Shown here: piece after piece, positions 2,209-34,700 of the stretch
How the letters are laid out: each line of letters starts with the position of its first letter
How positions within the stretch are numbered: the first letter of the stretch is position 1
Notes under the pieces: model-generated
The model's database searches: none
The model's input: only the letters and a program-made list of their open reading frames with translations
Told to the model about the DNA's origin: nothing
Translations under genes and position numbers: made by a program
Assembly (NCBI GenBank): GCA_950295325.1
Contig: OX485804.1
Coordinates: 25,296,001-25,360,000, forward strand
Source: Polytrichum commune
Lineage: Eukaryota; Streptophyta; Polytrichopsida; Polytrichales; Polytrichaceae
Reading direction: 5' to 3'
Length of the DNA stretch: 64,000 nucleotides

Positions 2209-2268
2209 GGACGAAGCTATTTTGCGAGTGGTGAGCGGTGAGCGGTAACTTCCGAGATATTTTGATTA
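2209..2268 (+). repeat. Left terminal inverted repeat of the giant transposon
   Basis: Starts GGACGAAGCTATTTTGCGAG and continues with tandem GAGCGGT units. It matches the reverse complement of the right end. The left copy has fewer GAGCGGT units, a gap of about 12 bp in the alignment. Similarity fades after about 60 bp. The tandem units could be transposase-binding sites, which is inference. Confidence 0.9.
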
Positions 2269-5600: not shown

Positions 5601-6321
5601 CTTTGTATTATGGCCATGGTCACCTAAAGGTGGAAACTCGAAGATAACATCCCCATCGTAACGACGAGGAAGGTAATCAACCTGCTGGAGTCTGATCGCA
5701 TCAAAGTTAATTCGAGATAACACACTTTTGGACCGCTTACGAGCTCCAAGGCGCATCAATGAATGAATGATACTGACAAGAGGACTTGCCACAACCTTGG
5801 CCTGACCAGGATTAGGAGACGGACTAACAGGAGGAGTTGTTTCCTTGCGAACTACTTGTGGAGACAACGAAGCTTGGACTCTGCTCGCTGATTTTAAGAA
5901 TTCAACATCGCCGTCGGAATCATCATTCAACTCATAAATTGTATTTAGACCAGGCTCAATTTTGACCTTAGACAGCACCGGTCTCTCAATGCTAACAGTG
6001 GAAGACTCCTTGGGTGTTAGAAGTTCAGTGGAACACTCAAACATAGACTCGGAGACTCCATATACATGATATTTTCCAGGCTTCAACAACCAGAACGTAC
6101 CGACGTCATTATCTACTCTAGTCTGACAAACTGCATGTGAAACTAGACCGGTATGATCGTCAAAAACTTCTTCTTCAACAAAGATAGTGACCTCACGATA
6201 TTGAAACCTCAAACTCAATGTTGCACAAGTGACTATAGTATGACCGTCTTCACCTAATGGAAAGAGGACCGGAACAGAATGAGGTTCAGCATGAAGCAGG
6301 GCCATAGTATACCACAGAACT
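2665..6321 (-). pseudogene. SWIM-type Mutator-like transposase (main exons)
   Basis: The gene reads leftward. One exon runs 6321 to 4215, bounded by a TTTTGTTCAG acceptor and a GTAAGT donor. A second runs 4111 to the TAG at 2665-2667, after a TTGCAG acceptor; phases match. In order it shows a proline/serine-rich leader, a Cys/His cluster (CLGHLRCDNPAC near 5500, then H.GSHDHP near 5230) resembling WRKY-GCM1-type transposon zinc fingers, a DDE-like core with MFDH near 4765 and FMADSAQANW near 4560, CxxxHW near 4465, and a C-terminal SWIM finger (CTCPNF near 2860, CKHLYYLF near 2795). Three lesions are seen: TGA for Trp at 4458-4460, a frameshift near 3293-3300 at an A5 run, and another near 2819-2826 that splits the SWIM finger. 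Orientation and position fit the element's own transposase. Confidence 0.8.
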
Positions 6322-6764
6322 CTGAACAAAACAAGTACTGTGAACATTGAAATGGCATGAATATATAAGAGGGAACAAATTACTGTGCAAACTGGTAATT
6401 TATGTACCAACAAGCAGAATTTCAGAAGATAATAGAGAGACATGGAGAGTAAGCTGAAAGACGGCTGAAAAACCATTTTTGGATGCAAGTCCCAGATAGG
6501 TAAGAAACCGATATCTATTTCAAACATAATATTCCAATATAAATAGAGCAAAAGAGGTGGACGTATCATATACACTCACAAGGTGTTATGTTTACCTGTT
6601 TTCAAATAGTAGAAACCAAGAACAGACATACATTCTAAACATTGTTGGTTATAATATATATTGGCAAATAAGGCCATAAGAATGACGGCCGCCACGAATA
6701 ATGTGGAGAGCATGATAGTAGCTCTGCAATAATAAATCCCAAACAATAGAATGCTACATTATGA

Positions 6765-7193
6765 TTAATGACAAAGACGCTTATGGGGCCCTTTGCCATT
6801 TTTGTCACCGTCATGTTTATGACAATGGTCAATCCCTAAACTATGAACTGCAGTGCATCCTGCGCAACCGAGTTTCTGTCGTTTGGGAAGTGGGAAACTC
6901 CTTAATACAGATCTAGAGTACGTGCCCGGTTTAATAACCCCTGCTCTAGAATATGCATGAATCTGTAAAGTAGACAAGTCCTCTATCAGTGTTGCAACAT
7001 CCGCTTGCAAGGATGGAGTCCGTGCATGTGGATTCTGAACCACAACCGCCGGAGTGACTGAGGAGTCAGGTGGGTTGTCAATCTTCATGTTGTTGACAAC
7101 TGCGAAACCATCGATGGACAACGTGGTGTGAACTTGAGATGTACTAGGAGAACCTAAAGGAGCAGGGCTTGGGAGACTTGAGTCAGTACCCAT
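6765..7193 (-). CDS. Candidate 5' exon of the transposase gene
   Basis: The frame opens with MGTDSSLPSP near 7193 and runs about 140 residues: a Ser/Pro-rich head, then a Cys/His-rich end (CAGC, then HCHKH) that could bind zinc. A TATA-like sequence (TATATAAT on the minus strand) lies about 50 bp upstream. It lies just upstream of the main transposase exons in the same orientation. I could not find a donor that joins it in phase to 6321, so it may be a separate small gene, or the first exon may use a site I missed. Confidence 0.4.
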   Translation of the reverse strand: MGTDSSLPSPAPLGSPSTSQVHTTLSIDGFAVVNNMKIDNPPDSSVTPAVVVQNPHARTPSLQADVATLIEDLSTLQIHAYSRAGVIKPGTYSRSVLRSFPLPKRQKLGCAGCTAVHSLGIDHCHKHDGDKNGKGPHKRLCH

Positions 7194-7633
7194 TGGAGAA
7201 GAATATGATGAGATGACATGAAGGAATGGGTACAAGCAATCAGGTATTATATACACCTAGGATAGACACCAATGCGCGAATATTTGATAACATGTTAGAT
7301 CAATTAATAGTCAATGTTTATTTATGTAAATGTTGGACACCCTGTTTCATGTAGGAAAAGAATGTACTACAATAATAGTCAATACTTTATCAACCACCAA
7401 ATATGTGACATGGCAGGATTCTATTATGTAGAATAGGTTTTAGTGCCGCCAATTGTAGTGTATTAATGCTGTGTGGATTAACAAAGGAATAAATCAAGGA
7501 AATGCAGATTAATTATCTAAATCCAATGTGAACACAATTATCCAAAATGTGAACATAATGATGGAGAATAGATGTTAATTATGACAGAGTTGACAATGAT
7601 ATATAAGATCTGTTTGCTTCAATATTATTAGAG
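7194..7633. promoter_or_regulatory. Divergent promoter region between transposase and cargo gene
   Basis: About 440 AT-rich bases separate the minus-strand start near 7193 from a plus-strand ATG at 7634. TATA-like sequences face both ways: TATATAAT near 7247 on the minus strand and TATATAAG near 7600 on the plus strand, about 30 bp before the ATG. This layout suggests shared control of transposase and cargo. No experimental evidence is available here. Confidence 0.5.
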
Positions 7634-8574: not shown

Positions 8575-11500
8575 TTGATGTGAGGTCTAGATATGGACGT
8601 ATTAAGGTCAAACTAATGTGAGGTTAGATATGTGGGTTACAAGTGTTAGGTTTTCTAAGGTTAGTTAGCTATGTTGGGTATTAGGGTAATCTGATGTAAG
8701 CGTAGAAATTTTGAAATTCCATGGCCGAGTTTGAGTGTCTCGGTGCCGAGACACGATTTTTGGTATTCAAACTGTAAACCCTACAATGATATTTGATATG
8801 GAAATCTAGATTTATTTGGTATAAGGGTACTCTGATTTGACACCAAACATGTGTGTTTGAAGTGCAATCTAATGTTAGGTCTAGATATGCTAGTATTAAG
8901 GTCAAACTTATGTGAGGTTAGATATGTGGGTTACAAGTCCAATCTGATATGAGGTAAGTTTGGACTTGTGGGTATAAGGGTGATTAGATGTAAGCTTAGA
9001 AATTTTTGAAATTCCAGAGCCGAGTTTGAGTGTCTCGGTCCCGAGACACAATTTTTGGTATTCAAACTGTAAACCCTACAATGATATTTGATATGGAAAT
9101 CTAGATTTATTTGGTATAAGGGTACTCTGATTTGACACCAAACATGTGTGTTTGAAGTGCAATCTAATGTTAGGTCTAGATATGCTAGTATTAAGGTCAA
9201 ATTGATGTGAGGTTAGATATGTGGGTTACAAGTGCAATCTGATATGAGGTAAGTTTGGACTTGTGGGTATAAGGGTGATTTGATGTACGCTTAGAAATTT
9301 TTGAAATTGCAGGGCCGAGTTTGAGTGTCTCGCTCCCGAGACACAATTTTTGGTATTCAAACTGTAAACCCTATAATGATATTTGATATGGAAATCTAGA
9401 TTTATTTGGTATAAGGGTACTTTGATTGGACACCAAACATGTGTGTTTGAAGTGCAATCTAATGTGAGGTCTAGATATGCAAGTATTAAGGTCAAACTGA
9501 TGTGAGGTTAGGTATGTGGGTTACAAGTGCAATATGATATGAGGTAACTTTGGACTTGTGGGTATAAGGGTGATTTGATCTAAGCTTAGAAATTTTTGAA
9601 ATTCCAGGGCCGAGTTTGAGTGTCTCGGTCCCGAGACACAATTTTTGGTATTCAAACTGTAAACCCTACAATGATATTTGATATGGAAATCTAGATTTAT
9701 TTGGTATAAGGGTACTCTGATTTGACACCAAACATGTGTGTTTGAAGTGCAATCTAATGTTAGGTCTAGATATGCTAGTATTAAGGTCAAACAGATGTGA
9801 GGTTAGATATGTGGGTTACAAGTGCAATTTGATATGAGGTGAGTTTGGACTTGTGGGTATACGAGTAATGTGATTTAATTTTTGAAATTTTTGAAATTCC
9901 AGGACCGTGTTTGAGTGTCTCGGTGCCGAGACACAATTTTTCGTATTCAAACTGTAAACCCTACAATGATATTTGATATGGAAATCTAGATTTATTTGGT
10001 ATAAGGGTACTCTGATTTGACACCAAACATGTGTGTTTGAAGTGCAATCTAATGTTAGGTCTAGATATGCTAGTATTAAGGTCAAACTGATGTGAGGTTA
10101 GATATGTGGGTTACAAGTGCAATCTGATATGAGGTAAGTTTGGACTTGTGGGTATAAGGGTGATTTGATGTAAGCTTAGAAATTTTTGAAATTCCAGGGC
10201 CGAGTTTGAGTGTCTCGGTCCCGAGACACAATTTTTGGTATTCAAACTGTAAACCCTATAATGATATTTGATATGGAAATCTAGATTTATTTGGTATAAG
10301 GGTACTCTGATTTGACACCAAACATGTGTGTTTGAAGTGCAATCTGATGTGAGGTCTAGATATGCAAGTATTAAGGTCAAACTGATGTGAGGTTAGGTAT
10401 GTGGGTTACAAGTGCAATCTGATATGAGGTAAGTTTGGACTTGTGGGTATAAGGGTGATTTGATGTAAGGTTAGAAATTTTTGAAATTCCAGGGCCGAGT
10501 TTGAGTGTCTCGGTCCCGAGACACCATTTTTGGTATTCAAACTGTAAACCCTACAATGATATTTGATATGGAAATCTAGATTTATTTGGTATAAGGGTAC
10601 TTTGATTTGACACCAAACATGTGTGTTTGAAGTGCAATCTAATGTTAGGTCTAGATATGCTAGTATTAAGGTCAAACTGATGTGAGGTTAGATATGTGGG
10701 TTACAAGGTCAATCTGATATGAGGTTAGTTTGGACTTGTGGGTATAAGGGTGATTTGATGTAAGCTTAGAAATGTTTGAAAGTCCAGGGCCGAGTTTCAG
10801 TGTCTCGGTGCCGAGAAACAATTTTTGGTATTCAAACTGTAAACCCTATAATGATATTTGATATGGAAATCTAGATTTATTTGGTATAAGGGTACTCTGA
10901 TTTGACACCAAACATGTGTGTTTGAAGTGCAATGTAATGTTAGGTCTAGATATGCTAGTATTAAGGTCAAACTGATGTGAGGTTAGATATGTGGGTTACA
11001 AGTGCAATCTGATATGACGTGAGTTTGGACTTGTAGGTATAAGGGTGATTTGATGTAAGCTTAGAAATTTTTGAAATTCCAGGGCCGAGTTTGAGTGTCT
11101 CGGTCCCGAGACACAATGTTTGGTATTCAAACTGTAAACCCTACAATGATATTTGATATGGAAATCTAGATTTATTTGGTATAAGGGTACTCTGATTTGA
11201 CACCAAACATGTGTGTTTGAAGTGCAATCTGATGTGAGGTCTAGATATGCTAGTATTAAGGTCAAACTGATGTGAGGTTAGATATGTGGGTTACAAGTGC
11301 AATTTGATATGAGGTGAGTTTGGACTTGTGGGTATACGAGTAATGTGATTTAATTTTTGAAATTTTTGAAATTCCAGGACCGTGTTTGAGTGTCTCGGTG
11401 CCGAGATACAATGTTTGGTATTCAAACTGTAAACCCTACAATGATATTTGATATGGAAATCTAGATTTATTTGGTATAAGGGTACTCTGATTTGACACCA

Positions 11501-13368
11501 AACATGTGTGTTTGAAGTGCAATCTGATGTGAGGTCTAGATATGCTAGTATTAAGGTAAAATTGATGTGAGGTTAGATATGTGGGTTACGAGTGCAATCT
11601 GATATGAGGTAAGTTTGGACTTGTGGGTATAAGGGTGATTAGATGTAAGCTTAGAAGTTTTTGAAATTCCAGAGCCGAGTTTGAGTGTCTCGGTCCCGAG
11701 ACACAATTTTTGGTATTCAAACTGTAAACCTTACAATGATATTTGATATGGAAATCTAGATTTATTTGGTATAAGGGTACTCTGATTTAACACCAAACAT
11801 GTGTGTTTGAAGTGCACTCTGATGTGAGGTCTAGATATGCTAGTATTAAGGTCAAACTGATGTGAGGTTAGATATGTGGGTTACAAGTGCAATTTGATAT
11901 GAGGTGAGTTTGCACTTGTGGGTATACGAGTAATGTGATTTAATTTTTGAAATTTTTGAAATTCCAGGACCGTGTTTGAGTGTCTCGGTCCCGAGACACA
12001 ATTTTTGGTATTCAAACTGTAAACCCTACAATGATATTTGATATGGAAATCTAGATTTATTTGGTATAAGGGTACTCTGATTTGACACCAAACATGTTTG
12101 TTTGAAGTGCAATCTAATGTGAGGTCTAGATATGCTAGTATTAAGGTCAAACTGATGTGAGGTTAGGTATGTGGGTTACAAGTGCAATCTGATATGAGGT
12201 AAGTTTGGACTTTTGGGTATAAGGGTGATTAGATGTAAGCTTAGAAATTTTTGAAATTCCAGGGCCGAGTTTGAGTGTCTCGGTCCCGAGACACGATTTT
12301 TGGTATTCAAACTGTAAACCCTACAATGATATTTGATAGGGAAATCTAGATTTATTTGGTATAAGGGTACTCTGATTTGACACCAAACATGTGTGTTTGA
12401 AGTGCAATCTAATGTGAGGTCTAGATATGCTAGTATTAAGGTCAAACTGATGTGAGGTTAGGTATGTGGGTTACAAGTGCAATCTGATATGAGGTAAGTT
12501 TGGACTTGTGGGTATAAGGGTGATTTGATGTAAGCTTAGAAATTTTTGAAATTCCAGGGCCGAGTTTAAGTGTCTCGGTGCCGAGAAACAATTTTTGGTA
12601 TTCAAACTGTAAACCCTACAATGATATTTGATATGGAAATCTAGATTTATTTGGTATAAGGGTACTCTGATTTGACACCAAACATGTGTGTTTGAAGTGC
12701 AATGTAATGTTAGGTCTAGATATGCTAGTATTAAGGTCAAACTGATGTGAGGTTAGATATGTGGGTTACAAGTGCAATCTGATATGACGTGAGTTTGGAC
12801 TTGTAGGTATAAGGGTGATTTGATGTAAGCTTAGAAATTTTTGAAATTCCAGGGCCGAGTTTGAGTGTCTCGGTCCCGAGACACAATTTTTGGTATTCAA
12901 ACTGTAAACCCTACAATGATATTTGATATGGAAATCTAGATTTATTTGGTATAAGGGTACTCTGATTTGACACCAAACATGTGTGTTTGAAGTGCAATCT
13001 GATGTGAGGTCTAGATATGCTAGTATTAAGGTCAAACTGATGTGAGGTTAGATATGTGGGTTACAAGTGCAATCTGATATGACGTGAGTTTGGACTTGTA
13101 GGTATAAGGGTGATTTGATGTAAGCTTAGAAATTTTTGAAATTCCAGGGCCGAGTTTGAGTGTCTCGGTCCCGAGACACAATTTTTGGTATTCAAACTGT
13201 AAACCCTACAATGATATTTGATATGGAAATCTAGATTTATTTGGTATAAGGGTACTCTGATTTGACACCAAACATGTGTGTTTGAAGTGCAATCTGATGT
13301 GAGGTCTAGATATGCTAGTATTAAGGTCAAACTGATGTGAGGTTAGGTATGTGGGTTACAAGTGCAAT
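8575..13368 (+). repeat. 295-bp satellite array, 16 units
   Basis: A sequence containing GGTTACAAGTGCAATCTGAT recurs every 295 bp with very few indels; the palindromes sit at about 8735 + 295n up to about 13160. Units differ mainly by point substitutions. Two sub-variants alternate: one with a ttaatttttgaaatttttg segment and an accgtgtttgag core, the other with taagcttagaaatttttg and gccgagtttgag. Each unit carries one palindrome GTGTCTCGG-TC/TG-CCGAGACAC. The short minus-strand frames in each unit are not a tandem protein, because 295 is not a multiple of three. The array would lie in the first intron of the cargo gene if that exon is real. Confidence 0.96.
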
Positions 13369-16235: not shown

Positions 16236-17440
16236 GCAATCTGATATGAGGTAAGTTTGGACTTGTGGGTATAAGGGTGATTTGATGTAAGCTTAGAAAT
16301 TTTTGAAATTCCAGGGCCGAGTTTGAGTGTCTCGCTCCCGAGACACAATTTTTGGTATTCAAACTGTAAACCCTACAATGATATTTGATATGGAAATCTA
16401 GATTTATTTGGTATAAGGGTACTCTGATTTGACACCAAACATGTGTGTTTGAAGTGCAATCTAATGTTAGGTCTAGATATGCTAGTATTAAGGTCAAATT
16501 GATGTGAGTTTAGATATGTGGGTTACAAGTGCAATCTGATATGAGGTTAGTTTGGACTTGTGGATATACGAGTAATGTGATTTAATTTTTGAAATTTTTG
16601 AAATTCCAGGACCGTGTTTGAGTGTCTCGGTCCCGAGACACAATTTTTGGTATTCAAACTGTAAACCCTACAATGATATTTGATATGGAAATCTAGATTT
16701 ATTTGGTATAAGGGTACTCTGTTTTGACACCAAAAATGTGTGTTTGAAGTGAAATTTGATGTGAGGTCTAGATATGCTAGTATTAAGGTCAAACTGATGT
16801 GAGGTTAGATATGTGGGTAACAAGTGCAATCTGATATGAGGTTAGTTTGGACTTGTGGGTATAAGGGTAATATGATTTAAGCTTCGAAATTTCTGAAATT
16901 CCAGGGCCGAATTTGAGTGTCTCGGTCCCGAGACACATTTTCTGGTTTTCAAACTCTACTACCTACAATCATAGTAGATATTGATGTCTAGATATGCTTG
17001 TTATAAGTGTACTCTGATATGATGTTAGAAATGTTTGTTAGAAGTGTAATCTGATCTAAGGTTTGATATCTGTAAGGATAGGTAGGTTTGAAATTGAATT
17101 TTATAGTTGATTTCTAGTTTCTCGGTCCCGAGAGACTATTTGAGACTATTAAACTCTTCCACCTCACTATGACTTTAGGGGCTATAAGTGTAATCTGATA
17201 TAAGTGTAACCTGATATGAGTGTAATCTTATATAAGTGTAACCTGATATAAGTGTAATTTGATATATTGTAAATTTGCAATGTGAGCTAAGAGGGTGATC
17301 CGATGTAAGGATCACTATTTCATGAGTTGAATATTTGTGCCTAGTACTAGTGTCTCGGTCCCGAGACATGTCTTTTGATGGTCAAACAATACCACATACA
17401 CTTGTAATTGATGGCAGCTGAGCTCATGTTCTCTCCTTGA
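16236..17440 (+). repeat. Satellite continuation, two regular units then degenerate copies
   Basis: The array resumes right after the solo LTR. Palindromes at about 16327, 16622 and 16917 keep the 295-bp spacing. Further right the units become AT-rich and diverged, yet the palindromic core persists near 17118 (variant arms) and 17350. This stretch runs up to the cargo-gene acceptor. Confidence 0.9.
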
Positions 17441-17464: not shown

Positions 17465-18384
17465 GTACAGAACAACGCAATGGAGGATGTTCCTGCTCTT
17501 TCTCTGTTTTTTCTAGACTATTCTGAAGAGGGTCAGGATGAGGATGAAGAGGGGCTTGGAGATAGAGATCCATATGAAGGGGATGAAAATGATATCAGGA
17601 CCCGACAAAAACTTAATTCTGTTGCCACGATTTCTCGACTAAGAGTCCAACCCCTGAGTTCCTCAAGGTTCCCTATTCCCTTGTGCAGAATGTTGGCCAT
17701 GCCTATGGTGAGGCCAACTCTCCCAAGTGATCTTGCTAAATTGGAGCAGGAGTTTGTGCATGGGTATAGAGAGGGTGCCTCGGTATTTTATGTGACAATA
17801 ACAAATGAAGAAGGGAAAACACATGAGGTTACTGAGGCTGATAAGGCATCGTGGGGTCCTATTTGGAGTGCCAAAAATGAACAATTCAACTCCTTTCTTC
17901 TGTCCGTTCCAGAGTTAGCCGGTTTTACGAATTTGATGTTCTTTGTTTGTGATGGGAACCATAGGCGGCAGGCTTGGTTGAACCATATTGAACGACTTCA
18001 CAAAACAGAAGAGTCCTGGCATTTTTTGGTGGATAGCATCCTCCTTGACACCAAGGGAAAAATTGGTATTGTTATGCAAGTTATACATAATATCAACAAG
18101 TAAGTTTTCTAAGTCCATTTTTTGAGGTTTTCATCTATGTACATATATTATGTTGTTCTTGTCTTTAATATATGATTGTTACTTGTAGACATACGGAAGA
18201 CTCTCACGTGAAGACAAACACAGTTCACACTCTATTTAGGGTGCAGAAGTATGGACTTATGCCGCTCAAACAGTACCAAAACATTTTGACTCCCTCTGAC
18301 ATTAAAAGGTGCAAGAAATCTCAAACTTCAAAGAAGACATGGTATTCATTAAATCTACATGTATTCACGAGCTTCATCTTCCAG
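17465..18384 (+). other. ParB-like region of the cargo protein (exons 2-3)
   Basis: The motif FVCDGNHRRQAWLNHI resembles the nucleotide-binding GxxR-type box of ParB/sulfiredoxin-fold proteins. It is followed by a hydrophobic strand (HFLVDSILLD) and a helix with HNINKHTEDSHVKTN across the 18099/18189 splice. A lysine codon is split by the intron and restored exactly. Substrate and partner are unknown. The assignment is from motif shape only. Confidence 0.5.
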
Positions 18385-18624
18385 GTATGATGTGATGTTG
18401 ATGCTTAATGATGTGATTACTCTTATATCTAATTCCTTTCAACATTTGGTACTTATAATTGATGTTTGAATGTTTTTGTTTCTTTATGTGCTTTCATAAC
18501 ACCTTTTTGTCGCAGTTGTTTGATTACAAACTAACTATGGTAATCCCTTTCCAGCACGAACTGGCACTTGCTGCAGATGAAGGCGTTCGTCAACTTCTTG
18601 AGCAAACGGATGGAGAGGTGTCTG

Positions 18625-19704
18625 CAGGGTTGTCTATCGCGACGTCATGACGGGGTCGTGCCATCATGACGCGTCGTGTCGGGTCGGACCCCTCCGTCAC
18701 GACACAATAGGCTCCTCGTAGGGTCAAACTAGGGTCAACCTAGTAGGGTGGGTAAAATACTTACCTTCTTGCCAAGGTGGCGTCCTATGTGGCAAAAAAT
18801 GCCGACGTGGATGTGCATATTTCCCTTGGCATGTAAACCATTTTGCCATTGTGTTTACCATTTTGTTAAAATCAAAGTAATAAAATATTACTAAGGAGGG
18901 TGTAGGTCGGACGGGGGGAACGGGTGGGGAGCGCGGGGGAACATGGGGTCGGATGGGGGTGAGGGTCGGGCGGGGGGAAGGGTCGGACAGGGTGGGGAGG
19001 GGTCGGACGGGGGGGGGGGGGGGGGAAGGGTCGGACGGGGGTGGGAGAGGGGTCGGTCGGACGCGGGGGGGGGGGGGGGGGGGGAGGGTCGGACGGGGGG
19101 GAGGACGGGGAGGGAGGACGGGAAGGTAAGTGGGAACGGGGGGGGGGGGGGAGGCGGACGGGGGGGAACGCGGGGAGCGTGTGGGAACGTGGGGAGCGGG
19201 GGATGGGAGCGGGTTTAGGAGGTTTGGATAGGACGGGATGGATGGGAACGAGATTAGGGGAACGGGGGAGGGGAACGGGAGGGAGGACGGGGGGTCGGAC
19301 GGGGGGGAGGGTCGGACGGGAGGGTCGGATGGGAAAAGGGAGGACGGAAAAAGGTCGGACGGGGGGGTCGGACGGGAGGGAACGTAGGGAACGGGTTAGG
19401 GAACATGTTATTGGGCTAAGGGAGCGGGGTTAGGGTACGGGGAATGGGGGCGGACGGGAGGGCGGACGGGCGCTAGTAATTTTATTCCCCACTTTACCTC
19501 TACTTTGCTGACATGTCATCACACGTGGACATCGTAACTCCTACGTGTCCGCAATGGGGTAATGTAAATACACAACAAATTCGGTAAAATTCAAGTCCGG
19601 CAGGATAAAGACATCATCCGTCATAATGTCGTGATGGATACGTGTCGTGACGGCACGACATTATGTCGGGATTACCCTCCGTCACGACATAATAGACAAC
19701 CCTG
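18625..19704. mobile_element. Non-autonomous hAT element (1,080 bp) in a cargo exon
   Basis: Ends are CAGGGTTGTCTAT and its inverse, flanked by the 8-bp duplication GGTGTCTG (18617-18624 and 19705-19712). CAGGG ends with 8-bp duplications are hAT hallmarks. Taking out the element and one duplication rejoins the cargo reading frame exactly. No transposase is encoded. Most of the interior is a G-rich tract. Subterminal sequences contain repeated TGTCGTGACG-type palindromes near both ends. Confidence 0.92.
18898..19470 (+). repeat. G-rich minisatellite (GGTCGGACGGGG-type)
   Basis: About 570 bp is made almost only of G with interspersed TCGGACG and GAACG, including G runs longer than ten. C is nearly absent from the plus strand outside CGGACG. 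Long glycine/arginine reading frames here come from composition, not genes. Many G-quadruplex patterns are possible. Confidence 0.93.
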
Positions 19705-20559
19705 GGTGTCTGCTGCTGAAAAAGCAGCCGCCATGAAGGTCGCTGCTTCAAAGAGAGCCGAGGCACTTCATAAGAAAATGTCAAAACTAGTTTGTGTGGC
19801 AAACCCAGACTTGACAGATGGATGGCTTCGGGAGGTATGTCCACTACTTTAAAACCCATTCTACATTTTTCAAGTAATTCATTAATCTCCATGATCTTAA
19901 TATATTGCTCTATGGGTCACAGATTGCGCGTCACTATACTCTTAACTCAATTGCACCCGAGCTCAACTTAGAGAAATTGCAGTTGATCGCTACTGCAAAA
20001 GCATCACCCGCTTGTAAAATCAAATGGTTGGAATATTTCAATTCCTCTTCATCAACACGTGAGGCTCGCAAACTGCCAACCAAGCCCACCAATGAGGACA
20101 AATTGCAGGCATTCCTAGCCAAGGCATGTTTTTGGGAAGGAGTGAGTACATAATCCCCTATGTACCCTTTAGTTCGGTGTTACTTGATTTGATCCCTTAC
20201 ATTAATTGGTCTTTCTCTTGGTTTCACGGTTATTTCAATATATGAATCGATGTTGCTCAAATTCTTGTTCATATTCACTCTCTGTATATACAGATATCCG
20301 ATCAGGCTTCCATTATATTTGAAGACACTTTGCGCCAAGACAGACTTGCTATCAACTTTGCACTACCCAGCGAGCCCTTGACCTTGGTTGCATACATCGA
20401 GGACTGTAGAATGAAATTATGGGACAACGCGTTTCCCACATTCTTCCGAGGGCAGGAGGCCTTTAACAAAACTCACGAATTTGAGGGATTTAACGAGACA
20501 GACTTGATTGTCCGAAGAGTTATCTTTCGGTGAGTTCTCTCCTTTCATACTACAGTTCT

Positions 20560-21530
20560 ATATGTGTGTTATAAGTGTACTCTCATATGATGTTAGTATG
20601 CACTTTGAGGTATTAGGGTAATCTGATACAAGGTTAGAAATTTGTGTTATATGTGAAATCTGGTGTGTGCTCTACATTTGGTTGTATTAAGGGTTATATG
20701 TGAAATCTGATATGAGGTTATATATGGTTGATATAAGTTTAATCTCATATAAGGTTAGTTAGCAATGTTTGATATCTACAGGTACTTCTTATAAGTGTAC
20801 TCTGATATGAGGCTAGATATGTGTGTTATAAGTGCATTTTGATGTGATTTCTAGATATGCTTGTATTAAGGTCAATCCGATATGAGGTTAGATTTGTGTG
20901 TTATAAGTGTAATATGATGTGAGGGTAATCTGATATAAGCTTAGTTAGTGATATCTGATATAAGCTTAGTTAGTGACATCTGATATAAGCTTAGTTAGGG
21001 TAGTCTGGTTTAAGCTTGGTTAGTGCAATCTGAGATTAGCTTAGGTAATGAAATGTGATACAATCTTAGTTAGGGGAGTCTGATATAACCTTAGTTTGGG
21101 TAACCTGATATAAGCTTAGTTAGGGCCTAGTTTCATATAAGCCTAGAAATCTCTGAAATTCCAGGGCCTAGTTTGAGTGTCTCGGTCCCGAGACACATTT
21201 TCTGGTATTCAAACTCTACTACCTACAAACATGGTTGCTATTGATATCTACCTATACTTGGTATAAGTGTACTCTGATATGAGGCTAGATATGTGTGTTA
21301 TAAGTGCATTCTGATGTGATTTCTAGATATGCTTGTATTAAGGTCAATCCGATATGAGGTTAGATTTGTGTGTTATAAGTGGAATATGATGCGAGGGTAA
21401 TCTGATATAAGCTTAGTTAGTGTTATATGATATAAGCTTAGTTAGTGACATCTGATTTGGCATAGTGTTTTGGTTTTTAATATGGCAGCTATGTCAATTG
21501 CAAGGTATTTAATGATGAGCTGTGTCTTTC
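20560..21530 (+). repeat. Intronic degenerate repeat tract with short tandem units
   Basis: The intron between 20529 and 21537 consists of diverged copies of the satellite-related phrase TCTGATATGAGGTTAGATAT. It also has a run of units of about 20-24 bp containing ATATAAGCTTAGTTAG (20930-21130, again near 21400). One palindrome core is intact near 21178. Confidence 0.85.
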
Positions 21531-22619
21531 CCGCAGGTATTTCAAGTACGAGCTCCTTGCAAAAGGAACAATAACAAAAGAAGATCTCCCTATATTCCTC
21601 TCAGCATGGCTTGACAGGTCTAACTCCACGTGCATGTTCTCAGCAAATCAACAACGTACATGGTCAACCTCACATCTCACTGGAGGTGGTTGGTACCTTG
21701 ACTGTGCTCCTAGTTTCACTCCTTCCTTTGAAACTGAACTTAGGAAGTCAAGGGAGGCAGTTGGAAAATCTGGTGTTGAGATGATTGACTTACAGGGCAT
21801 AGAAGACGAGCATGAGAGGGCAAAGGCCCTATCCCGACGTCTAGAAGAGGATAGGAAGAAGGCGCTTAGAGTAAAGGAAGCAGAGGAGAAAGCCGCACAG
21901 AAAGAGATGGAAAAACTTCAAAAATCATTGGAGAAGACTACCATGAAGGGGAAAAAGAAGATGAACCCCCATTCTGAGCTAGAAGGAAGAGTCCCGTTGC
22001 TCCAAGTCCAACCTATGAATCTGGTTCTCATGCTCCAACATTTTCTAGAGGAACAAAACGCGATTCCTCCTATGAGCAGTTGAGTCAAATTCCTATTTTG
22101 ACATTGGGGGAGGAGCTCGATATCCATATTCAAGAACTCATTCTCAACGCCTCAATGGAGGACGTTCTTAGCGGTGACACGGAGGAATTCACCCCTTCCT
22201 ACAACGAGTTGAAAAGATTCATGCTCAAGGTACTGCTCTTCCTTAATTTTGTCATAACATGTTTGCATTTAAATTTATGCATTTCAATGTGGTCCACATT
22301 GAACATTCAGTAGGTACTACTTTTCATATTTCAGTAATCGGCCATAATTTTTTTCGGGACCGAATCATGGATCTGACGAGTAAGGTTGGTAGGGTATAGT
22401 TTATGCGGGACCCAAACACCATGTGGAGTGCGAGCTGAGCCCTCAATGGACTCGGCAATTTGTTTTGTGCTTGCAATCGGCCATTTGTTTTGTTGTACCA
22501 TTTTGTTTGTGGAAATTAGGAGTTGAAATATGAATGGTGAGGTGTCAAGTTCATTTTTGAACTTTTTTAGTCGGAACACTGTTTAAGTGAAATCCCCGCC
22601 CTCTCTAAATTCTACCTTC

Positions 22620-23560
22620 TCTGAAATATGATGTGAGGTCTAGATATGCAAGTATTAAGGTCAAACTGATGTGAGGTTAGATATGTGGGTTACAAGTGCA
22701 ATCTGATATGAGGTTAGTTTGCAATTTTGGGTATTGGGGTAATATGAGGCAAGTTTAGAAATTTCTGATTTTCTAGGGCCGAGTTTGAGTGTCTCGGTCC
22801 CGAGACACATTTTCTGGTATTCAAACTGTAAACCCTACAATGATATTTGATATTGAAATCTAGATTTACTTGGTATAAGGGTACTCTGATATGAGACTAC
22901 ACATGTGTGTTTGAAGTGAAATTTGATGTGAGGTCTAGATATGCTAGTATTAAGGTCAAACTGATGTGAGGTTAGTTTGCAATTGTGGGTATAAGGGTAA
23001 TTTGATTTAAGCTTAGACATTTCTGATTTTCCAGGGCCGAGTTTGAGTGTCTCGGTCCCGAGACACATTTTCTGGTATTCAAACTCTACTACCTACAATC
23101 ATAGTAGATATTGATATCTAGATATGCTTGTTATAAGTGTACTATGATATGATGTTAGAAATGTTTGCTAGAAGTGTAATCTGATCTAAGGTTAGATATA
23201 TGTGTTGTAAGGTCTATCTGAACTGGGGTTGAATATGGGTGATATTACTGTAATCTGATGGGAGATAAGATATCTGGGCTATATCTGTTATCTGATATCG
23301 GGTTAGATATGTGTGTGATATGAGGTTAGATATGTGTGTTATGAGTACAATCTGATGTGAGGTTATATTCGCATGTTAGAAGGTCAATCTGATATGAGGT
23401 TGAATATGGGTGTCATAAAGGTACTTTGATCTGTGGTTAGATATGTGGGTAACAAGTGTAACTTGATAAGAGGTTAGATTTGTGTATTATATAAGGTTAG
23501 TAATGAGTATAGATATGTTTGATATAAGGGCTAGTACTAGGCAATGTACAAAGCAAGGAG
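22620..23560 (+). repeat. Intronic satellite-related tract with two intact palindromes
   Basis: The intron between 22229 and 23603 contains two satellite-like units, with palindromes near 22790 and 23048, then decayed copies. These were probably seeded by the same family as the main array. Confidence 0.85.
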
Positions 23561-23602
23561 GATTATTTTAACACCAAACCTGGGTGTCCTTTGATTGTGC
23601 AG

Positions 23603-24699
23603 CACTCAAAAGACAAAACCCGGCACTACAAGGGTTCTCCGGATGACCATCCCTGTTTGGACTTGATTCTTGCAAATATACCGGAAGGTCTTCCTGTTCC
23701 TGGCATATCAAACCCACCGCCGTCCATTCCCGCTTGGAATCAAGAATCAAAAGAGTGGTTACAACCACTCTTTGACTTTGCCGACGAACATCTGCACGAC
23801 GACGGGGCAATTATTTTGTTTCACCCTTTTCGCATGAGTACGAAGTCCAATATTCTTGGATATTGCAAATCGTATGGTTTTGCAATTCGGAAAGAGTGGT
23901 GGGGAATGAACCGCCTTCATCTTACATCTCCAATAAATCCAGCATCAACTGTAAGATAAAGCTTAAGTCTTCTTTCTGATCACCGCATTCAGTTTCAATT
24001 TCATCCTTGAGGTAGTTCTGAGTGTAGACCCACCTGACTATTATACTCACGCAGTTCTGTTGTTCACTTTGTAAAGTAATATTGATCTTTATGTCTGGTA
24101 CATTATAGACCACGAGGTTCGGTATTTCATTGGCGGTCAGGAGCGTGCCGGGGTCACCTGCATCAAAGTTTTCATTTCGCCATGTCCCTGAATTGGATCC
24201 TTATGGGGTGGATGTTGCACGGGATGATATTCTCCAGAACTTGGTCTCTCGTGAGGACCAACTAACTAATGGATCCACACCATGGCGAGGGCCTCGTGAA
24301 AAGTCCGTGCTTCTAATGCAAATGCTAATTGAAGCATGTAGCTCCCCATGGGATATTATTCTAAACTGCACGGCAGCGACCGGTATGTCTTTGTAATCTT
24401 GCATTTTAGTTGGTTAATTGTTAATATTGTTTTGTTCTACAAAATTCATAGTGGTTTTTGTACTAAGTTTTTCCAACTTCTTTATTTGCAGGATCTTCCA
24501 TTCATGCATGCCGCAATGTGCACCGTCACATTGCGGCATTAGAGGTTGATGTAGATATTTTTGAGGCCGTACTTGCTCCATTGATTATCTCTAGAGCAGC
24601 CTCTGAAGTCACTCTTGAAGACCGTGTCACCAGTGTAGAGGATCCTGAGGGTGAAGATATTCCCGTTGAGAGGATTGTGAAGAGATCTCGGTTTACTAA
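23603..24699 (+). other. Beta-class N4/N6 amino-methyltransferase-like domain of the cargo protein
   Basis: The order catalytic region first, SAM-binding region last, is that of beta-class N4-cytosine/N6-adenine methyltransferases. The catalytic strand reads LDLILANIPEGLP near 23655-23693, where a DPPY- or SPPW-type motif is expected. Further on come GAIILFHPF and YGFAIRKEWWGMNRLHL. After EKSVLLMQMLIEACSS the motif-I strand is IILNCTAATGSS, where an FxGxG-type loop is expected, followed by HRHIAALEVD, which fits the acidic SAM-ribose position. Fold conservation is good but both key motifs are altered, so activity is doubtful. Confidence 0.6.
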
Positions 24700-25085
24700 G
24701 TGAGTATGGTCCACAAATTCTCTTACCAATGTTATGTTTTTTGCTGTCATTTCTTCTAAAGTTGAGTTATGAACATGGTACCATTGGCATTTGCAGATGC
24801 GATAAATTGAGCTATCCTATTCACCGGCCTTTTTTTTGTGACCCTAAATTCTATCCCAGCCCTCCAAAGTCTTGGCAACTTCCTACATATGCAAATGTTA
24901 TTGCTAATCAACTAGCTGGAGGTTCTTATCAGATTTTTACATCTAAATATCATCCGGGAAGAGTTTTAGAGTTTTTGGATATAGAAGCTTTAGAATCAGA
25001 TGGTCAGGCCTCCTCTGATGCATATATTAGTGATTCTAGAATGTCTTCATCATCACGTGATCACAGTGATTCGGATTTGATGTAA

Positions 25086-26642: not shown

Positions 26643-26714
26643 TTCAATATTCTAGAAAACTTACCGCTCACCGCTCACTGCACACCGCTCACCGCTCGCA
26701 AAATAGCTTTTCCC
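26643..26714 (-). repeat. Right terminal inverted repeat of the giant transposon
   Basis: Read on the minus strand it starts GGGAAAAGCTATTTTGCGAG and carries four GAGCGGT-like units plus a diverged one. It pairs with the left end over about 60 bp. Confidence 0.9.
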
Positions 26715-26724
26715 TCAACTCCGC
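26715..26724 (+). repeat. Right target-site duplication of the giant transposon
   Basis: TCAACTCCGC, identical to 2199-2208. The retroelement frame resumes immediately. Confidence 0.93.
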
Positions 26725-29700
26725 CAGGGTACATTTTTGAAAATGTGCCGTTATTGGGTGATACACGGCACAAAGTGGTGAAGGATGGTGAGTACATTAA
26801 CCAAATTCTGGGTACTCCAACATTTCTGGATGCTGCATCCTTGGGATCCTTTGCTCATCGGCCTCGTTGGTTTTGGACCAATTTGGTATCACCTCAGGTG
26901 CTTTCAGCGGCGATCGCCCGCATTCCCCGCCTTATGAATCGCAAGGTGGATGACATTTTGGATGATCATCGTGTTTCCGTGGCAGTTTCGAAGGATGACA
27001 CCTTGTCATTTGCATTAATTAACAAGGTGGGAATTCCGAGAGGTGCACTACCTACTTTTGGGACATATCCACGGTCTTTCGCATTTCGATCTCGTGGACC
27101 AGGCATGGTTTGGGATTCAAAATCCCAAACTCATGATGAGCCTACGGCAGATGAGCGGGAATGCGCCATGGGTTTTCCTACAGGCACCACGGCTGCTCAT
27201 GGGCTTCAGGAAGGTCAGAGACGTTTCCTATTGGGACAAACTATGGATCTCAATAGCATGGTGTGGATAATTGGAATTTGTCTTGCCGCTCAACAACGTA
27301 TGGATGACCAATTGCTTCCTCTGAGGGCAGAGTACAATGGTCAGGGGGCAATGGAGCCGCAATCCAAGGATCACTTGGAGGTCAATGACACTGAGGAATT
27401 ATTTCCTTTGAAACTTCATATTGCGGAAGAGCTTCGACCCCAACGTGTTTTTTCGGCTTTGGCCCAAGAGTTTGGGAAGTTGGAGGCCCATAAAATGTTT
27501 CCACTTCTATTTCTTGGTGACACTTCATATGTGGGTAGCTATTTAGCTACACAGACTGATTGTAGTGGAAAGGATACGCATTTGGATTCAAGTACAGATG
27601 ATGGGGGCAAAGGTGTTGCCCTCTCTACGGACTAGCAATCACAGGCTGTGCTGGCACCAAATGGCAATCCTTCTATGAAGAAGGAAACCACGGAGTTTGA
27701 CGATTGGCCAATTGAAGTGGGGCCAAAACTTACTGGTGTCGAAGCATGAAAGGTACGGGCATTTATTCGCTCTTACCGTAATTGTTTTGCCTTTAGTCTT
27801 CATGATCTTGAAGGATATAAAGGTAAACCTATTCGTATTCAACTCGAGGACGACCATCCTATTTTCAGACGGCCGTACAGACTTAGTACATCTGAAAGGT
27901 TGGGTGTTCAAACTCGATGTCAAGAATTATTGGCAGCGGAATTGATTGAACTCTCCAATGGAGAGTATGCTTGTGCCATGGTTATGCCTTCAAAGAAAGA
28001 TATCTTTGGCAACTGGACGAAAAAACGGATGTGTGGTGATTATCGTCCAGTCAACCGCAAGACCAAGTCGGATCGATATCCAATGCCGATGCCCGAGGAG
28101 TTGTTTGATGCACTGGGATTTGCTAGAATCTTCAGCGCTCTGGATTTGAGGTCTGGTTATTATCAATTACCTTTGTTTTTGGGTGATCGGGTGAAGACCG
28201 CATTTTGGGGAATTGATAAAGATGGCAAGGATCAACTTTATCATTGGAAATTTTTGCCATTTGGTCTTAAGAATGCACCAGCTGAATTTCAGCGGGTGAT
28301 GGACCAATTATTGGCTGGTTTACCGTTTGCTAGATGTTACATTGATGATGTTATCATCTTTAGTAATAGTTCACATGATCATGTGAGACATTTGCAAGCG
28401 GTATTTGAACGACTACAACGGTGGGGACTCCGTTTACATCATGGCAAATGTAAGTTTTTCCATGATCAATTGCCCTATTTAGGCCACATGATTGTTTCTG
28501 GCGGTCTTGGTGTGCAACAGGCGAAGGTGGATGCTTTGCACAAAATTCCCGCACCTAGTGATGTACCACGACTTCGGGCATTTCTAGGATTGGCAAATTA
28601 TTATAGAAGGTTTGTCAAAAACTTTAGTTTAATTGCCAAACCTCTTACCATTCTCACGGGAAAAGACCAACCATGGATTTGGAGTCGGGAACAATAACAT
28701 ACATTTGATACATTGAAGCAGAGGCTCGGTTCAGCGCCAGTGCTTCGACGCCCGGATGTGTTTAGAGCTTTTCAATTGCACACGGATTGGAGTGCAGTGG
28801 GATTCGGAGCGGTATTGACACAGAAAGATGAAGAGGGAAAAGAATATGTGGTGGCTTATGGATCTAGAAGGAATAATAATGCTGAATCTAATTATTCTTC
28901 TTATGAAGGCGAGGCCTTGGCGGCCATTTGGGCCATTGCACATTTTCGACCTTATTTGTATGGGCAAAAATTTACTTTGGTGACTGATCATCAGCCTTTA
29001 AAATGGCTTATGGAATCAGATAAACTCACTGGAAAACTTGCTAGGTGGGCATTCTTACTTCAAGAATATGACTTTGAAGTTGTTCACCGAGTAGGAATTG
29101 CCAACTTGGATGCAGACGGATTGTCTCGCAATCCAAGTCCTTCAGATGAGGATTTAACTGGAGCCAGGTGGCATGGAGATTGTGATCGTGAGGCAGTGCC
29201 GGGTTGGCATGCTGCCACATATCTCACAATAATGTCGGGATTGGCTGCTGAGATCCTTGTGGAAGAACAAGATGAGGAGGTTGATAAATCTGTTGTTGTT
29301 AGTAATGTGTGGGGAGACCAGACGGTCTTGCACAAACTTCAACAAGGGATATTTCTTCTTAGACTATCTGCTATGGAACGAGATAGAGTTAGTCACCGGA
29401 TAACAAGGTTTCGTTGGGCAAACGGCTTGTTATCTCGTGTGTGGCCAAACAGAACGAGGCGCATCGTTCCAAGGCCAGATCAAAGAGCTTCTTTAGTGCG
29501 GCAAGTGCACGAGGAGCTTGGACATTTTGGAGTGCGAAAGACACACTCTATGTTGCGCAACCAATATTGGTGGACTGGGATGTATCAACAGGTTGCCACT
29601 TATGTTTCTAGGTGTGAAGTATGTGACCGGGTCAGGTCAAGTTTTAATACTTTATCACCTCAACTTCAGCCTTTACCTATTATGGGCTTGGGATATCGTT

Positions 29701-30779
29701 GGTCTTTGGATTTTGCCGGACCGCTTACTATCACTCCCCGTGGGGCAAAGTATGTGCTTGTGATGGTGGAGCATTTTAGTAAGTGGATTGAACTCGTGGT
29801 TCTTCCCCAAAATTCCTCAGAATTGGCGGCTATGGCATTTCTTGATCGAGTTTTGGCACGGTTTGGAGCACCTGCAGAGGTGTTGACGGATCAAGGGAGA
29901 GAATTCCTTGGATCTTTCGAGGCTTTGTATACTAAGGCTTTGATTGATCATCGAACAACTTCCAGAGATCACCCTGAGGTAGATGGCTTAGCTGAACGAG
30001 TTGTTCAGACTGTCAAGCGCGGTTTGCGGAAGTATGGGTTGTTTCATGGCAACCATCGTGATTGGGACATGATGTTACAATGGATAGCAATGGGTTACCG
30101 TTTCAGCAGGCAATCATCTTTGGCATCCTATAGTCATTACCAACTCTTGTATGGACGGGAACCAATTTTACCTAGCTCTGTGCGAGAGAAATTGGCTCCT
30201 GTGGTAGACTTGGTTGATCCAGATGTTTGGGCTCAATGTCTTCATGACCGAGCAAAATTCTTTCAAAAGGCCATGCCTATGGCCATGGAGAACTTAAACA
30301 TAGCTCAACATCGTGATACATTACGGTATGCCCGGATCCGCAGTGGAGCTTATCGACCTCAGGTTCGTAGATTTTCCAAGGGGAATTATGTTTACTTGCA
30401 ACGGGAGGCGCCTACGACATTGGATGTTAAGGCTGGGCGCACAATTTTGCGGGTAAAAGATGTTTTACCAAGTGGTATATTATTGCTTGAAGACAAAGAT
30501 GGACGGGAATGTCGTGAGCATTCAAAGAATTGTGCTCCATGTCACCTTCCCATCGACAGCTCTGTACATCCCGAGTTGGCGGTTGTACCACAGGGTCTGC
30601 CTTGTTATGTGTGTGGAGAGAAGAAAGGAGCTGCAACAATGTTATTGTGCGACCATTGTCAACGTGGATGACACATGGCATGTTTGACACCTCCCCTTTT
30701 GACTCTTCCTTCTGGCAATTGGGTTTGTCCTCGTTGTTGGAAAGCCTCCCACTCCATGGCCGTTGATGGTCATGATTAG
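26725..30779 (+). pseudogene. C-terminal half of C5-methyltransferase, RT, RNase H, integrase and PHD finger (copy A)
   Basis: One frame covers the region. Methyltransferase motif VI (ENV) is at 26739, the motif VIII-like AHRPRWFWTNL near 26850, and motifs IX-X with ECAMGFPTGTT and LLGQTMDLNS near 27160-27260. RT follows, with YIDDVIIF near 28340. RNase H shows TDWSA near 28780, YEGEALAA near 28900 and TDHQPL near 28985. Integrase has HEELGH...CEVC near 29510-29625 and a D-D-E core (DFAG near 29710, TDQGREF near 29885, GLAERV near 29985). The C-terminus is a C4HC3 PHD finger (CYVC, CDHC, HMAC, CPRC; 30604-30740). Stops at 27633, 27747, 28695 and 30669 are all explained by single C-to-T changes on either strand. 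The final stop is TAG at 30777-30779. Confidence 0.92.
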
Positions 30780-31648: not shown

Positions 31649-31754
31649 TGAAGAGGTGGTTGTTTAGCATATTAGTTTGCTATGTTTATTTTGCTAATTG
31701 ATGTTGATGACGACACTCGATCTGTTGTGTTTAACGATCTTAGTTTACACGACA
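31649..31754 (+). repeat. LTR head fragment (LTR bases 1-106), plus orientation
   Basis: Identical to the start of the 3' LTR of copy A, including the preceding CT. It stops at CACGACA and is followed by four unplaced bases (ACAA) and then inverted methyltransferase sequence. It supplies the part of the LTR missing from the right end of copy B. Confidence 0.85.
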
Positions 31755-31758
31755 ACAA

Positions 31759-34700
31759 GCGGAGTTGATTGGTGGGTAAACCACCATTGTATCAATCGCA
31801 TCAAATCCGCAAACAAACTAGACCTAGGATCATCCAATCCCTGGCCAGTTCCTGTCCGCGAATGGCCTTGATAAGGCCATCCTGCAATAATCAAATCCAC
31901 GTGGCCCAACCTTCTCAAATCCTCATCACTAATCATAGTGACATCTTGAGGAAGTTGACCACAACATCCATGAATGGCAGAGGCTGACAATTGTGCGGGA
32001 TATCTCAACAACAATTGTTGGATGTGGTGTCGGACGACTCTGTTGGCTGCATACCCATTGTCCACATGAATATATCGCCAAACTGTAATTCCAGCTTCCA
32101 ACACTGCCGCCAAACCTGTGCCAATGCCTCCAAAGATCTCTACAAGGACAATACCTTCAGGTGATGGTTGCCAACGAATGGGTTGAGCAAAAGAAAATGA
32201 GGATGAAGTTGGAGGTGCTTCTCTAAGCTCCAAATCCGCTACAATGTGTCGACAATGGTCGGATAACTCCTTAGGAGTTCGCCATGGTGGAGGTGGATCC
32301 TTGAAATGTCGAGCAAGAATTTGAAAAGATGGTAAAAATTGTTGTTCTGCCGCATTACAAGTGTAGTCCATTGTTTCCTCCAATAAAACTGGAGCACAAG
32401 GCAAATCTGCAACTGAACCGCTGCAACCAAACATTGCCTCCGCAACCATAGTCATAGAAGTAGCTGCAAATGCTACAGGAATAAATACCTTCCTGCCATC
32501 TCCAGAAGACCATCCCGGTCTAATCCATGCCTCTTCCGTCCAATTATCCAAACCAAAGCCAAGTGGATAAAGAGCTTGCTGACCAACAAGTATATCATAG
32601 TTGGTAGTATTAGTAACAGCACACTTCATTGACAAATGAGTGTAAGTAGGCCCTGCCCCAACATGAAAAATCAAACGTAGAGGTGCCTTGGTGTAACCTG
32701 TTGCACGTTCAGTGCCCCCTACTGAAGTCACAATAGTGAATGGACAAGGATCCAAGCTTGCTGGCGTCAATCCAAGACTGTCAGCAAGTCCTTTGCCAAT
32801 CATAACCGGTTGAGCACCGGAATCCATCATAACTCTCAGTGGTGTAGCACGGATAGTGGGCATATCCGTGCGTGAAACGACAAACAAAGATTTGTCGTTC
32901 ATCAGCCGTACAACTCCAGGTTGCAAATTATGCCGTTCGCGAGCAGGCCTTGCAGAAATATCTGCAAGATATGCCGCTCCCGACGCATAATTCGAAAGCG
33001 ACGTATCCACTGCTGAAATTGATGCTGGAGGAATATCAATTTGCTTACCAAAAGCAATGATCGCCGCATCCGCAAGACTCGCTCGCAAATTGGCTAAGTC
33101 CTCCACCTCCTCAGCCACAGGTACATCAACAACAGCTTGGGATACTTGAAGGGATGGCAAATCCGCCTTACCTTCTAACATTCTCCCAGCTAAATGAAAA
33201 ACTGCAGCAGGTTTGAAATCCGAAGCCATAAATTCCGAACCCGAGAAAATTGGCATATGGAGAATTTTATATGCCAATGCCTGCGTAACATCTTTCGAAA
33301 TGGAATCCCCATCTCTCAAAGGTACAGGGTTTTTAGCCCCAACAACAGTGGTGTCTACCAATCCAAATGAAAGAGGTAAACGTGCTTGACCAATTTGATC
33401 AGCTGGTCCGGCATGGCGAGGATGTAGCACCTCGTTGCTACCACCACTCGTGGAAGCCACCGCATCTGCCAATGTTTGTGAGCGGGTAGAAGCCGCCGTC
33501 ACCACCTCTCCAGATGCCCCAAACATATACATGTCCGAATCTGAGGTACCACCACCCACATGTGGCTCAGAAATTTGAGCAAAAGATGCAGAAGATTTGA
33601 GCTTTTGTTCAAGCTCTGCCACCTTAGCCTCAAGACTATGCTCCCTTGGAGACTTTCCAGTGACATAACTGGCAGGCCGCATCTCATGATGAAGTTGGAA
33701 ACAATGATCCACATCGTGATTAGTGCCACCATAATGGTTACATTTCAATTGTCTCTTCTTAGAATTGTCCCCTGCCTTTACTGGTTCCATCTTTTGTTTT
33801 AATTTTCCCAAAGGCTGAGTTTTCTTCTTCTTAGGACAATTGGGATCATTCTTCGAATGACCAGCTTCTCCACAACCCCAACAATGCAATTTTTTTTGCT
33901 CCTTAACGGGTTGAGTCTCAGCTAAACTACTAGTAGCTGTGACAATTCTTCTTGGTTTCGGACTCTCTGTCATCCAAGATACCATATCCGTGGCATCATG
34001 TTGGCAAAGAGCCCGATCACATCTCTCAACCACGGCAAACGCTTGTGCAAGCGTAGCTCGGCCCTCGTAGTCGAGGATAATCCGAGGTGATGCCAACTCA
34101 AGTAGCCGCTTGTCAATCTTAGACAAAAAGATTTTAACAAGCTGACTTTCAGCAAAAACACCTCCCGACTCCACAACAAATCGCGCGAGTCGCGTATACA
34201 TGGTCCGTGGAGTATCATCCTTCTCTCAGCGGAAATCTTGGATGCGCTGCATCTGGTCTCGCCAAAATCCACCATACTCCACTTCCAAATGTGCGACAAA
34301 TTCAGTAAGGGGATTAAACGGAGGTGGTGGACCAACAGCCGTCAATGCTGCCTGTGTAGCACGTGCCACCCGTGAAAGGGTTGCCGTGCTACTGTTAGCC
34401 ACCATTGGCCCAAGTGCCAGTTCCGTGTCCTTAGACTCCGCCGGCGATTCCTCCTCCTTTAAGGTGGGTGGAGCTAAGGTAGCAACCGCCCCATCCTTAA
34501 GGGCTGAAATGAGCTCAACCCGAGCCTCCCAATACTGCTCCACCTCCCGAAGTTGTCGCTGATGACCCTCTGTCCAGCGTTCATAAGTTTGGAGTGCCTC
34601 ATACTCCAAATGTTGAGGCACAAGTTCAAAGGCATACCAATCATTGAAATTGGAAGACCTTTGACGTTTCTCCTTAATCCAGGTACGAAACCGGAGTTTC

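Follow-up and report, generated by a model that had tools for sequence, protein, structure and literature searches.

The element and its two genes

A stretch of 64,000 nucleotides from the moss Polytrichum commune (GenBank assembly GCA_950295325.1, contig OX485804.1, positions 25,296,001 to 25,360,000 of the forward strand; referred to as the window, whose numbering is used below) harbours a giant Mutator-like element of 24.5 kb (2209-26714) which carries, next to its transposase gene, an accessory gene for a protein with a possibly ParB-like N-terminus and a methyltransferase fold at its C-terminus. The accessory gene is real and transposon-borne. Based on the findings described here we suggest, with a confidence that falls a little short of even, that the accessory protein may read palindromes scattered over the element and that the outcome may be an element-specific anti-silencing.

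The element is bounded by terminal inverted repeats (TIRs) of about 35 bp, the left one on the transposase side (GGACGAAGCTATTTTGCGAG..., 2209-2246, plus strand) and the right one on the methyltransferase side (GGGAAAAGCTATTTTGCGAG..., 26677-26714, minus strand), and by an exact 10-bp target site duplication (TSD; TCAACTCCGC at 2199-2208, right copy at 26715-26724). TIRs and a TSD of this length are what is expected of Mutator-like elements (MULEs), whose TSDs measure 8-11 bp according to the available part of a review (PMC6446971). An identity as KDZ transposon was considered and dropped in view of the 10-bp TSD, which fits Mutator-like elements, and of a transposase without any Pfam match. 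The transposase gene region (2778-7256, minus strand, main open reading frame 4461-6575) is read leftward and the accessory gene rightward, i.e. the two form a divergent, head-to-head pair. MULE transposases end in a zinc finger, frequently of SWIM type. Near 2860 the CxC portion of a putative SWIM-like motif (ACTCPNF) was spotted by eye in the transposase, and a Pfam search of the transposase reading frames of the window and of one longer copy gave no match, the MULE-type domain PF10551 included.

The accessory gene (17480-25085, plus strand) can be read as ten coding exons with GT-AG introns and consistent phase, as proposed in the initial annotation, and homologues support these exons. Exon 1 (17480-18099) encodes the ParB-like segment with the sequence DGNHRR and is followed by exons 2 (18189-18384), 3 (18555-18624 and, after an insertion, 19705-19834), 4 (19923-20141) and 5 (20294-20529). 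Exon 6 (21537-22229) encodes a lysine/glutamate-rich, coiled-coil-like stretch, in line with the coiled coil predicted earlier for the middle of the protein. The methyltransferase part begins with strand 4 and an altered motif IV in exon 7 (23603-23950), goes on in exon 8 (24109-24382) with an RGPREKS helix and the first portion of motif I, which is completed in exon 9 (24492-24699) together with the acidic motif of strand 2 (HIAALEVD), and ends with the C-terminus through the stop codon in exon 10 (24797-25085).

The copy in the window is dead. Exon 3 is split by a hAT-like insertion of 1080 bp (18625-19704; ends CAGGGTTGTC...GACAACCCTG) with an 8-bp duplication (GGTGTCTG) that provides the opening bases of the second exon portion; the frame of exon 6 is broken near 21975, the same exon being open in the relative L099; and the transposase stops at a private TGA, at a position that encodes Trp in 26 of the 27 copies that could be read (30 were fetched, 3 of which fell outside the match pattern). 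That this copy is broken had been overlooked in the initial annotation. The hAT-like insertion itself is non-coding and has a very G-rich middle.

Linkage of the genes and mobility of the family

The family was surveyed in the whole genome (408 Mb, 64 contigs), where at least 63 transposase places, at least 77 methyltransferase-exon places and at least 133 places of the N-terminal part were scored. An accessory gene on the opposite strand is located within 40 kb of 46 of the 63 scored transposases (shuffle maximum 5) and within 20 kb of 41 of them (shuffle maximum 3), so that the earlier idea of a transposon accessory gene holds. Moreover, a methyltransferase exon lies within 20 kb on the same strand at 50 of the 133 N-terminal places, and on the opposite strand at 1. 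Some transposases and accessory copies have no partner, for which incomplete lists and truncation of elements may be partly responsible.

A 15-mer of the TIR occurs 74 + 75 times in the genome, its reversed control not once. Pairing of the first 100 of these 149 sites as inward-facing ends less than 60 kb apart resulted in 24 pairs, 13 of which enclose both genes, in each case on opposite strands (13/13); the others hold a transposase together with a methyltransferase exon (1), only a transposase (3), the N-terminal part without transposase (3), only a methyltransferase exon (3) or none of these (1). With both genes enclosed in 13 of the 24, the outcome named as a refutation in the initial annotation, namely that the homologues are ordinary host genes with no transposon ends nearby, was not observed. 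Among ten TIR-paired elements whose ends were fetched, eight have an exact 10-bp TSD, one matches in 9 of 10 bases and one has none. Judging from paired TIRs and TSDs around these gene contents, the family has moved as a unit.

One copy, L098 (G000:C4:21846150-21855050), is a deletion derivative of 8.8 kb with an exact 10-bp TSD. Its two ends, exons 7-10 and an array of palindromes are still present, but it has lost the N-terminal part and almost the entire transposase gene. Several L098-like copies are found among the methyltransferase-exon places.

The accessory protein

The C-terminal half of the accessory protein is a permuted beta-class N6/N4 amino-methyltransferase fold. The permuted order, with motif IV ahead of motif I, is confirmed in exons 7-9, the half aligns in profile-profile comparison with the methyltransferase halves of phage and bacterial proteins, and the RGPREKS helix falls on the HP-x-x-KP region of the phage enzymes. 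The fold is also seen in a structure model, which was built from the relative P0132 rather than from the window copy; chains of METTL3/METTL14, MTA1 and type III Mod match this model too, at lower Z, which reflects a shared fold and not membership in these groups. With the exon 7-10 piece 9 proteins were found by single-sequence search and 80 by alignment search, and the exon 1-3 piece has 234 matching proteins (the best 120 of the 234 are listed). Homologues exist in the moss Ceratodon purpureus (P0001 and P0002), one of them on the U chromosome.

The N-terminal half is strongly conserved, with 49 invariant-or-more columns of the about 206 listed, and contains FFVCDGNHRRQAW. Of the two folds proposed in the initial annotation, the N4/N6 amino-methyltransferase stands, whereas for ParB there is only a weak trace: in 13 of 30 related members DGNHRR is covered by a match of the PHROGs profile phrog_1033, annotated as 'ParB-like partition protein', with a best E-value of 0.082. 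The Pfam ParB family had no match in 30 family members, neither a profile search of the N-terminal part against the PDB nor a profile-profile comparison with eight bacterial and phage ParB sequences gave a match, and the AlphaFold model of this part was unusable (predicted local distance difference test 42.8) and gave no structural match. We therefore call the N-terminus ParB-like by motif, a designation that is weakly supported. A genome search with PF02195 had matches in the small contigs C12 and C23 only and none in the moss family. Both contigs have the appearance of contaminants of bacterial or phage origin, and C12 contains, beside phage-like genes, a complete ParB-methyltransferase protein with an intact DPPY (L001, 1468-2799).

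In beta-class enzymes motif IV has the consensus (D/N/S)-P-P-(Y/F/W). All 32 genome copies read for the moss family have x-P-E at this place, namely NIPE in the window copy, D-x-P-E in 30 of the 31 other fetched copies and HIPE in one, as determined with a pattern that admitted only a few spellings (PEG, PEN, PKN, PPY, PPW, PEA, PER). In the homologous proteins the key position is E or K in 53 of 53 matched sequences, x-P-K being rare; the pattern used here ([GNA][LQIVF]x[VIA][PLS] after the fourth residue) favours the spelling of the moss family but admits Y/F/W/H at the key place, and 28 of the 81 proteins fall outside it, some of which are pieces that do not cover motif IV (e.g. P0001), while P0005 and P0200 open with PEG. 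The acidic motif of strand 2 is retained, and so is motif I, which is of the D-C-T-A-A-T-G type and has lost the canonical F-x-G-x-G. The median omega of exon 7 is 0.16, below the 0.35 of the transposase (pairs with saturated or low dS were removed, leaving 65 of 561 exon-7 and 250 of 435 transposase pairs). To judge from these ratios exon 7 is under purifying selection. The methyltransferase half no longer looks catalytic and may thus be a maintained pseudo-enzyme.

For the Ectocarpus protein Dinatale et al. suggest, in the part of their article at hand, that it binds and modifies the DNA of its own transposon (PMC12477816), and the initial annotation had likewise considered marking of transposon DNA. 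An active N6-adenine or N4-cytosine DNA methyltransferase of this kind would be in keeping with the preserved fold, motif I and acidic motif and with the selection on exon 7; however, the relatives read have other residues in place of the aromatic one and of the first proline in motif IV, and motif I deviates as described. As motif IV has no aromatic residue, marking by methylation finds no support here, and we regard an active enzyme as rather improbable.

The gene might also be a captured bacterial or host gene, either a functionless hitch-hiker or decayed debris, since Mutator-like elements, according to the accessible text of the review (PMC6446971), are known for capturing genes, and the window copy is broken. 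Selection and linkage, as analysed here, already contradict this explanation: at least 133 copies were scored, their divergent placement is constant, omega is 0.16 as compared to 0.35 for the transposase, and homologues occur in C. purpureus. Its probability is close to negligible.

Palindromes in the element

The palindrome TGTCTCGGTNCCGAGACA is abundant in the window element, with 24 copies if up to two mismatches are allowed. Sixteen of them are part of a tandem repeat (8578-13368) with 16.2 copies of a 295-bp unit, five are found in similar repeats just upstream of the accessory start codon (16236-17369), and three are located in introns 5 and 6 (21178-23065; starts at 21178, 22790 and 23048). 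Reduced to its core, TCGGNNCCGA, the motif is present 23 times in the element, 18 times with fully paired 4-bp arms (at most 1 in shuffles), and is absent from the remaining 39.5 kb of the window. Relatives carry it as well, with 14 cores in L098 (10 with perfect arms; 139-bp repeat), 8 in L099 (5 with perfect arms) and 7 in L101, which is 86% identical in the N-terminal part (3 with perfect arms; 234-bp repeat). The 139-bp and 234-bp repeats are unrelated to the 295-bp unit, with which they share hardly any alignable sequence apart from the palindrome. The arms vary in compensated pairs (TGTC/GACA, TGTT/AACA, TGTA/TACA, GGTT/AACC, GGGT/ACCC), although 3 of the 8 L099 copies have unpaired arms (GGTT/ACCC). 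A paired change of the arms would be expected of a site that is read symmetrically, e.g. by a dimer.

The palindromes could, however, belong to the transposase or to a host factor, i.e. they may be cis-sites of transposition, promoter elements or recombination sites, with the accessory protein as a structural helper of transposition. The retention of ends and array in L098 after loss of the ParB-like part and almost the entire transposase gene fits sites needed in cis, and palindromes between the two genes are where a promoter is expected, but both observations also fit the anti-silencing model. Most palindromes of the window lie in the 4.8-kb array and in introns, distant from the TIRs to which a transposase is expected to bind, and we consider this alternative unlikely, but not far-fetched.

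The subterminal repeats at the methyltransferase-side end, of a 131-bp type, include another perfect palindrome, GGCCTCGGATCCGAGGCC, near position 283 of L099, and imperfect relatives of it occur in the subterminal repeats of L098 (8091-8693).

A possible mode of action

We propose that the accessory protein, consisting of the ParB-like segment, a helical coiled-coil-like middle and a methyltransferase fold of non-catalytic appearance, would dimerise and recognise dyad-symmetric sites made of the TCGGNNCCGA core and subfamily-specific 4-bp arms, with an L099-type protein preferring GGTTTCGGTCCCGAAACC. Candidate sites are those in the tandem repeats between both genes and in the accessory introns. 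METTL14 is a binding partner fold beside METTL3, and similarly the methyltransferase fold may serve DNA or partner binding. Coating of its own DNA would let the element evade host silencing or lift it, comparable to the action of VANC proteins on the VANDAL elements of Arabidopsis. That the accessory protein is the one which binds the palindromes appears to us an evenly balanced proposition, and the anti-silencing outcome, for which we draw on the analogy to VANDAL elements, is proposed tentatively.

VANC proteins target short motifs within tandem repeats and bring about a loss of DNA methylation, as described in the available parts of two reports (PMC5735166, PMC10398659). VANDAL elements, as portrayed there, resemble the moss element in being of Mutator type, in carrying an accessory gene and in being rich in short motifs, which differ from one related element to the next and occur within tandem repeats, in introns and in upstream regions, and it is this layout that makes us favour element-specific anti-silencing. 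VANC binding and hypomethylation are proven in Arabidopsis, whereas for the moss system both are a proposal.

Several points weigh against our proposal. VANC proteins, according to the same texts, carry DUF1985/DUF287 and no methyltransferase fold, and their motif YAGTATTAY is not palindromic; DUF1985 is absent from the Pfam matches of three pieces of the accessory protein. A ParB fold is established by none of Pfam, PHROGs, PDB profile, profile-profile and AlphaFold analyses. L100, a relative that is 66% identical in the ParB-like part, is a counter-example, since the 4.3 kb read of it contain 2 cores, neither of them flanked by perfect arms. Palindrome counts cover the fetched loci, i.e. the window and L098-L101, and these elements share ancestry, so that the copies are not independent. 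The palindrome was first seen in the window element and the core was defined after L098 and L099, which leaves only L100 (weak) and L101 (clear) as later looks. Finally, L098 has palindromes but no ParB-like part and would thus need help in trans.

A variant of the palindrome, TGTTTCGGTGCCGAAACA, shares its arms with bacterial parS, which is TGTTTCACGTGAAACA. One may thus imagine self-recognition in the manner of ParB/parS, where the ParB-like part would load at palindromes and spread to shield the whole element, the dead fold would act as dimerisation or DNA-reading module, and the arms would co-evolve with the protein in each subfamily. We regard this as a long shot.

Surroundings of the element

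The giant element is inserted inside a Ty3/Gypsy-like element, whose reading frame it splits in two (flanks 1-2208 and 26715-30671). This frame seemingly contains a C5-cytosine-methyltransferase-like domain with the motifs FGGIGTG, AGWPC and ENV, found by eye and presumably those of C5-cytosine methyltransferases; Pfam found an aspartic protease alone. A second Ty3/Gypsy-like copy (31745-34225, minus strand) ends at 31745-31770 with the same ten bases, TCAACTCCGC, as the insertion site of the giant element, other sequence lying beyond. This may be a coincidence or a shared breakpoint. Rfam gave no match within the window.

Comparison with known systems

Phage and bacterial ParB-methyltransferase proteins (L001, and L066 in a Desulfofustis phage) have the same order as the moss protein, i.e. 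a ParB-like part followed by a permuted beta-class methyltransferase. However, L001 has D-P-P-Y and a ParB that Pfam detects, whereas the moss protein has neither and contains an additional coiled-coil-like middle. N4CMT from the bdelloid rotifer Adineta vaga (PDB 8s9o) is reported, in the accessible part of the publication, to make an epigenetic mark (PMC8885841), whereas motif IV is altered in the moss.

The closest description is that of Dinatale et al. (2025), whose article, in the part available, reports that a 21.5-kb Sola1 element of the brown alga Ectocarpus encodes, on the other strand than its transposase, a protein with a ParB-like and a methyltransferase part, and cites similar proteins in transposons of green and red algae (PMC12477816), so that the 'undescribed system' of the initial annotation was too strong a term. 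The Ectocarpus protein, Sola1-1_Ec32, resembles the moss protein in combining a ParB-like part with an N4C/N6A methyltransferase in a giant DNA transposon, on the strand opposite to the transposase; of the features of this algal class, methyltransferase fold and opposite strand are present in the moss and the ParB trace is weak. Compared by description only, the moss case differs in transposon superfamily and host lineage, in the altered motif IV, in a barely detectable ParB part and in its palindrome arrays. Literature searches for transposon proteins with ParB and methyltransferase gave no land-plant or Mutator-type case among the matches listed, and the words 'moss', 'bryophyt' and 'accessory' are absent from the portion of the Mutator review at hand (PMC6446971). 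Thus, as far as these searches go, the class is already known, and the Mutator-type, moss version with altered motif and palindrome arrays is new.

How plant transposons evade silencing is an open question outside VANDAL elements. If our proposal is true, a family unrelated to VANC has reached the same solution, i.e. repeat arrays as self-tag together with a reader protein, the reader being assembled from components of bacterial DNA modification, with a catalytic motif that has changed and a fold that selection has kept. With this family the class, hitherto described from transposons of algae, would extend to a moss and to a Mutator-type element.

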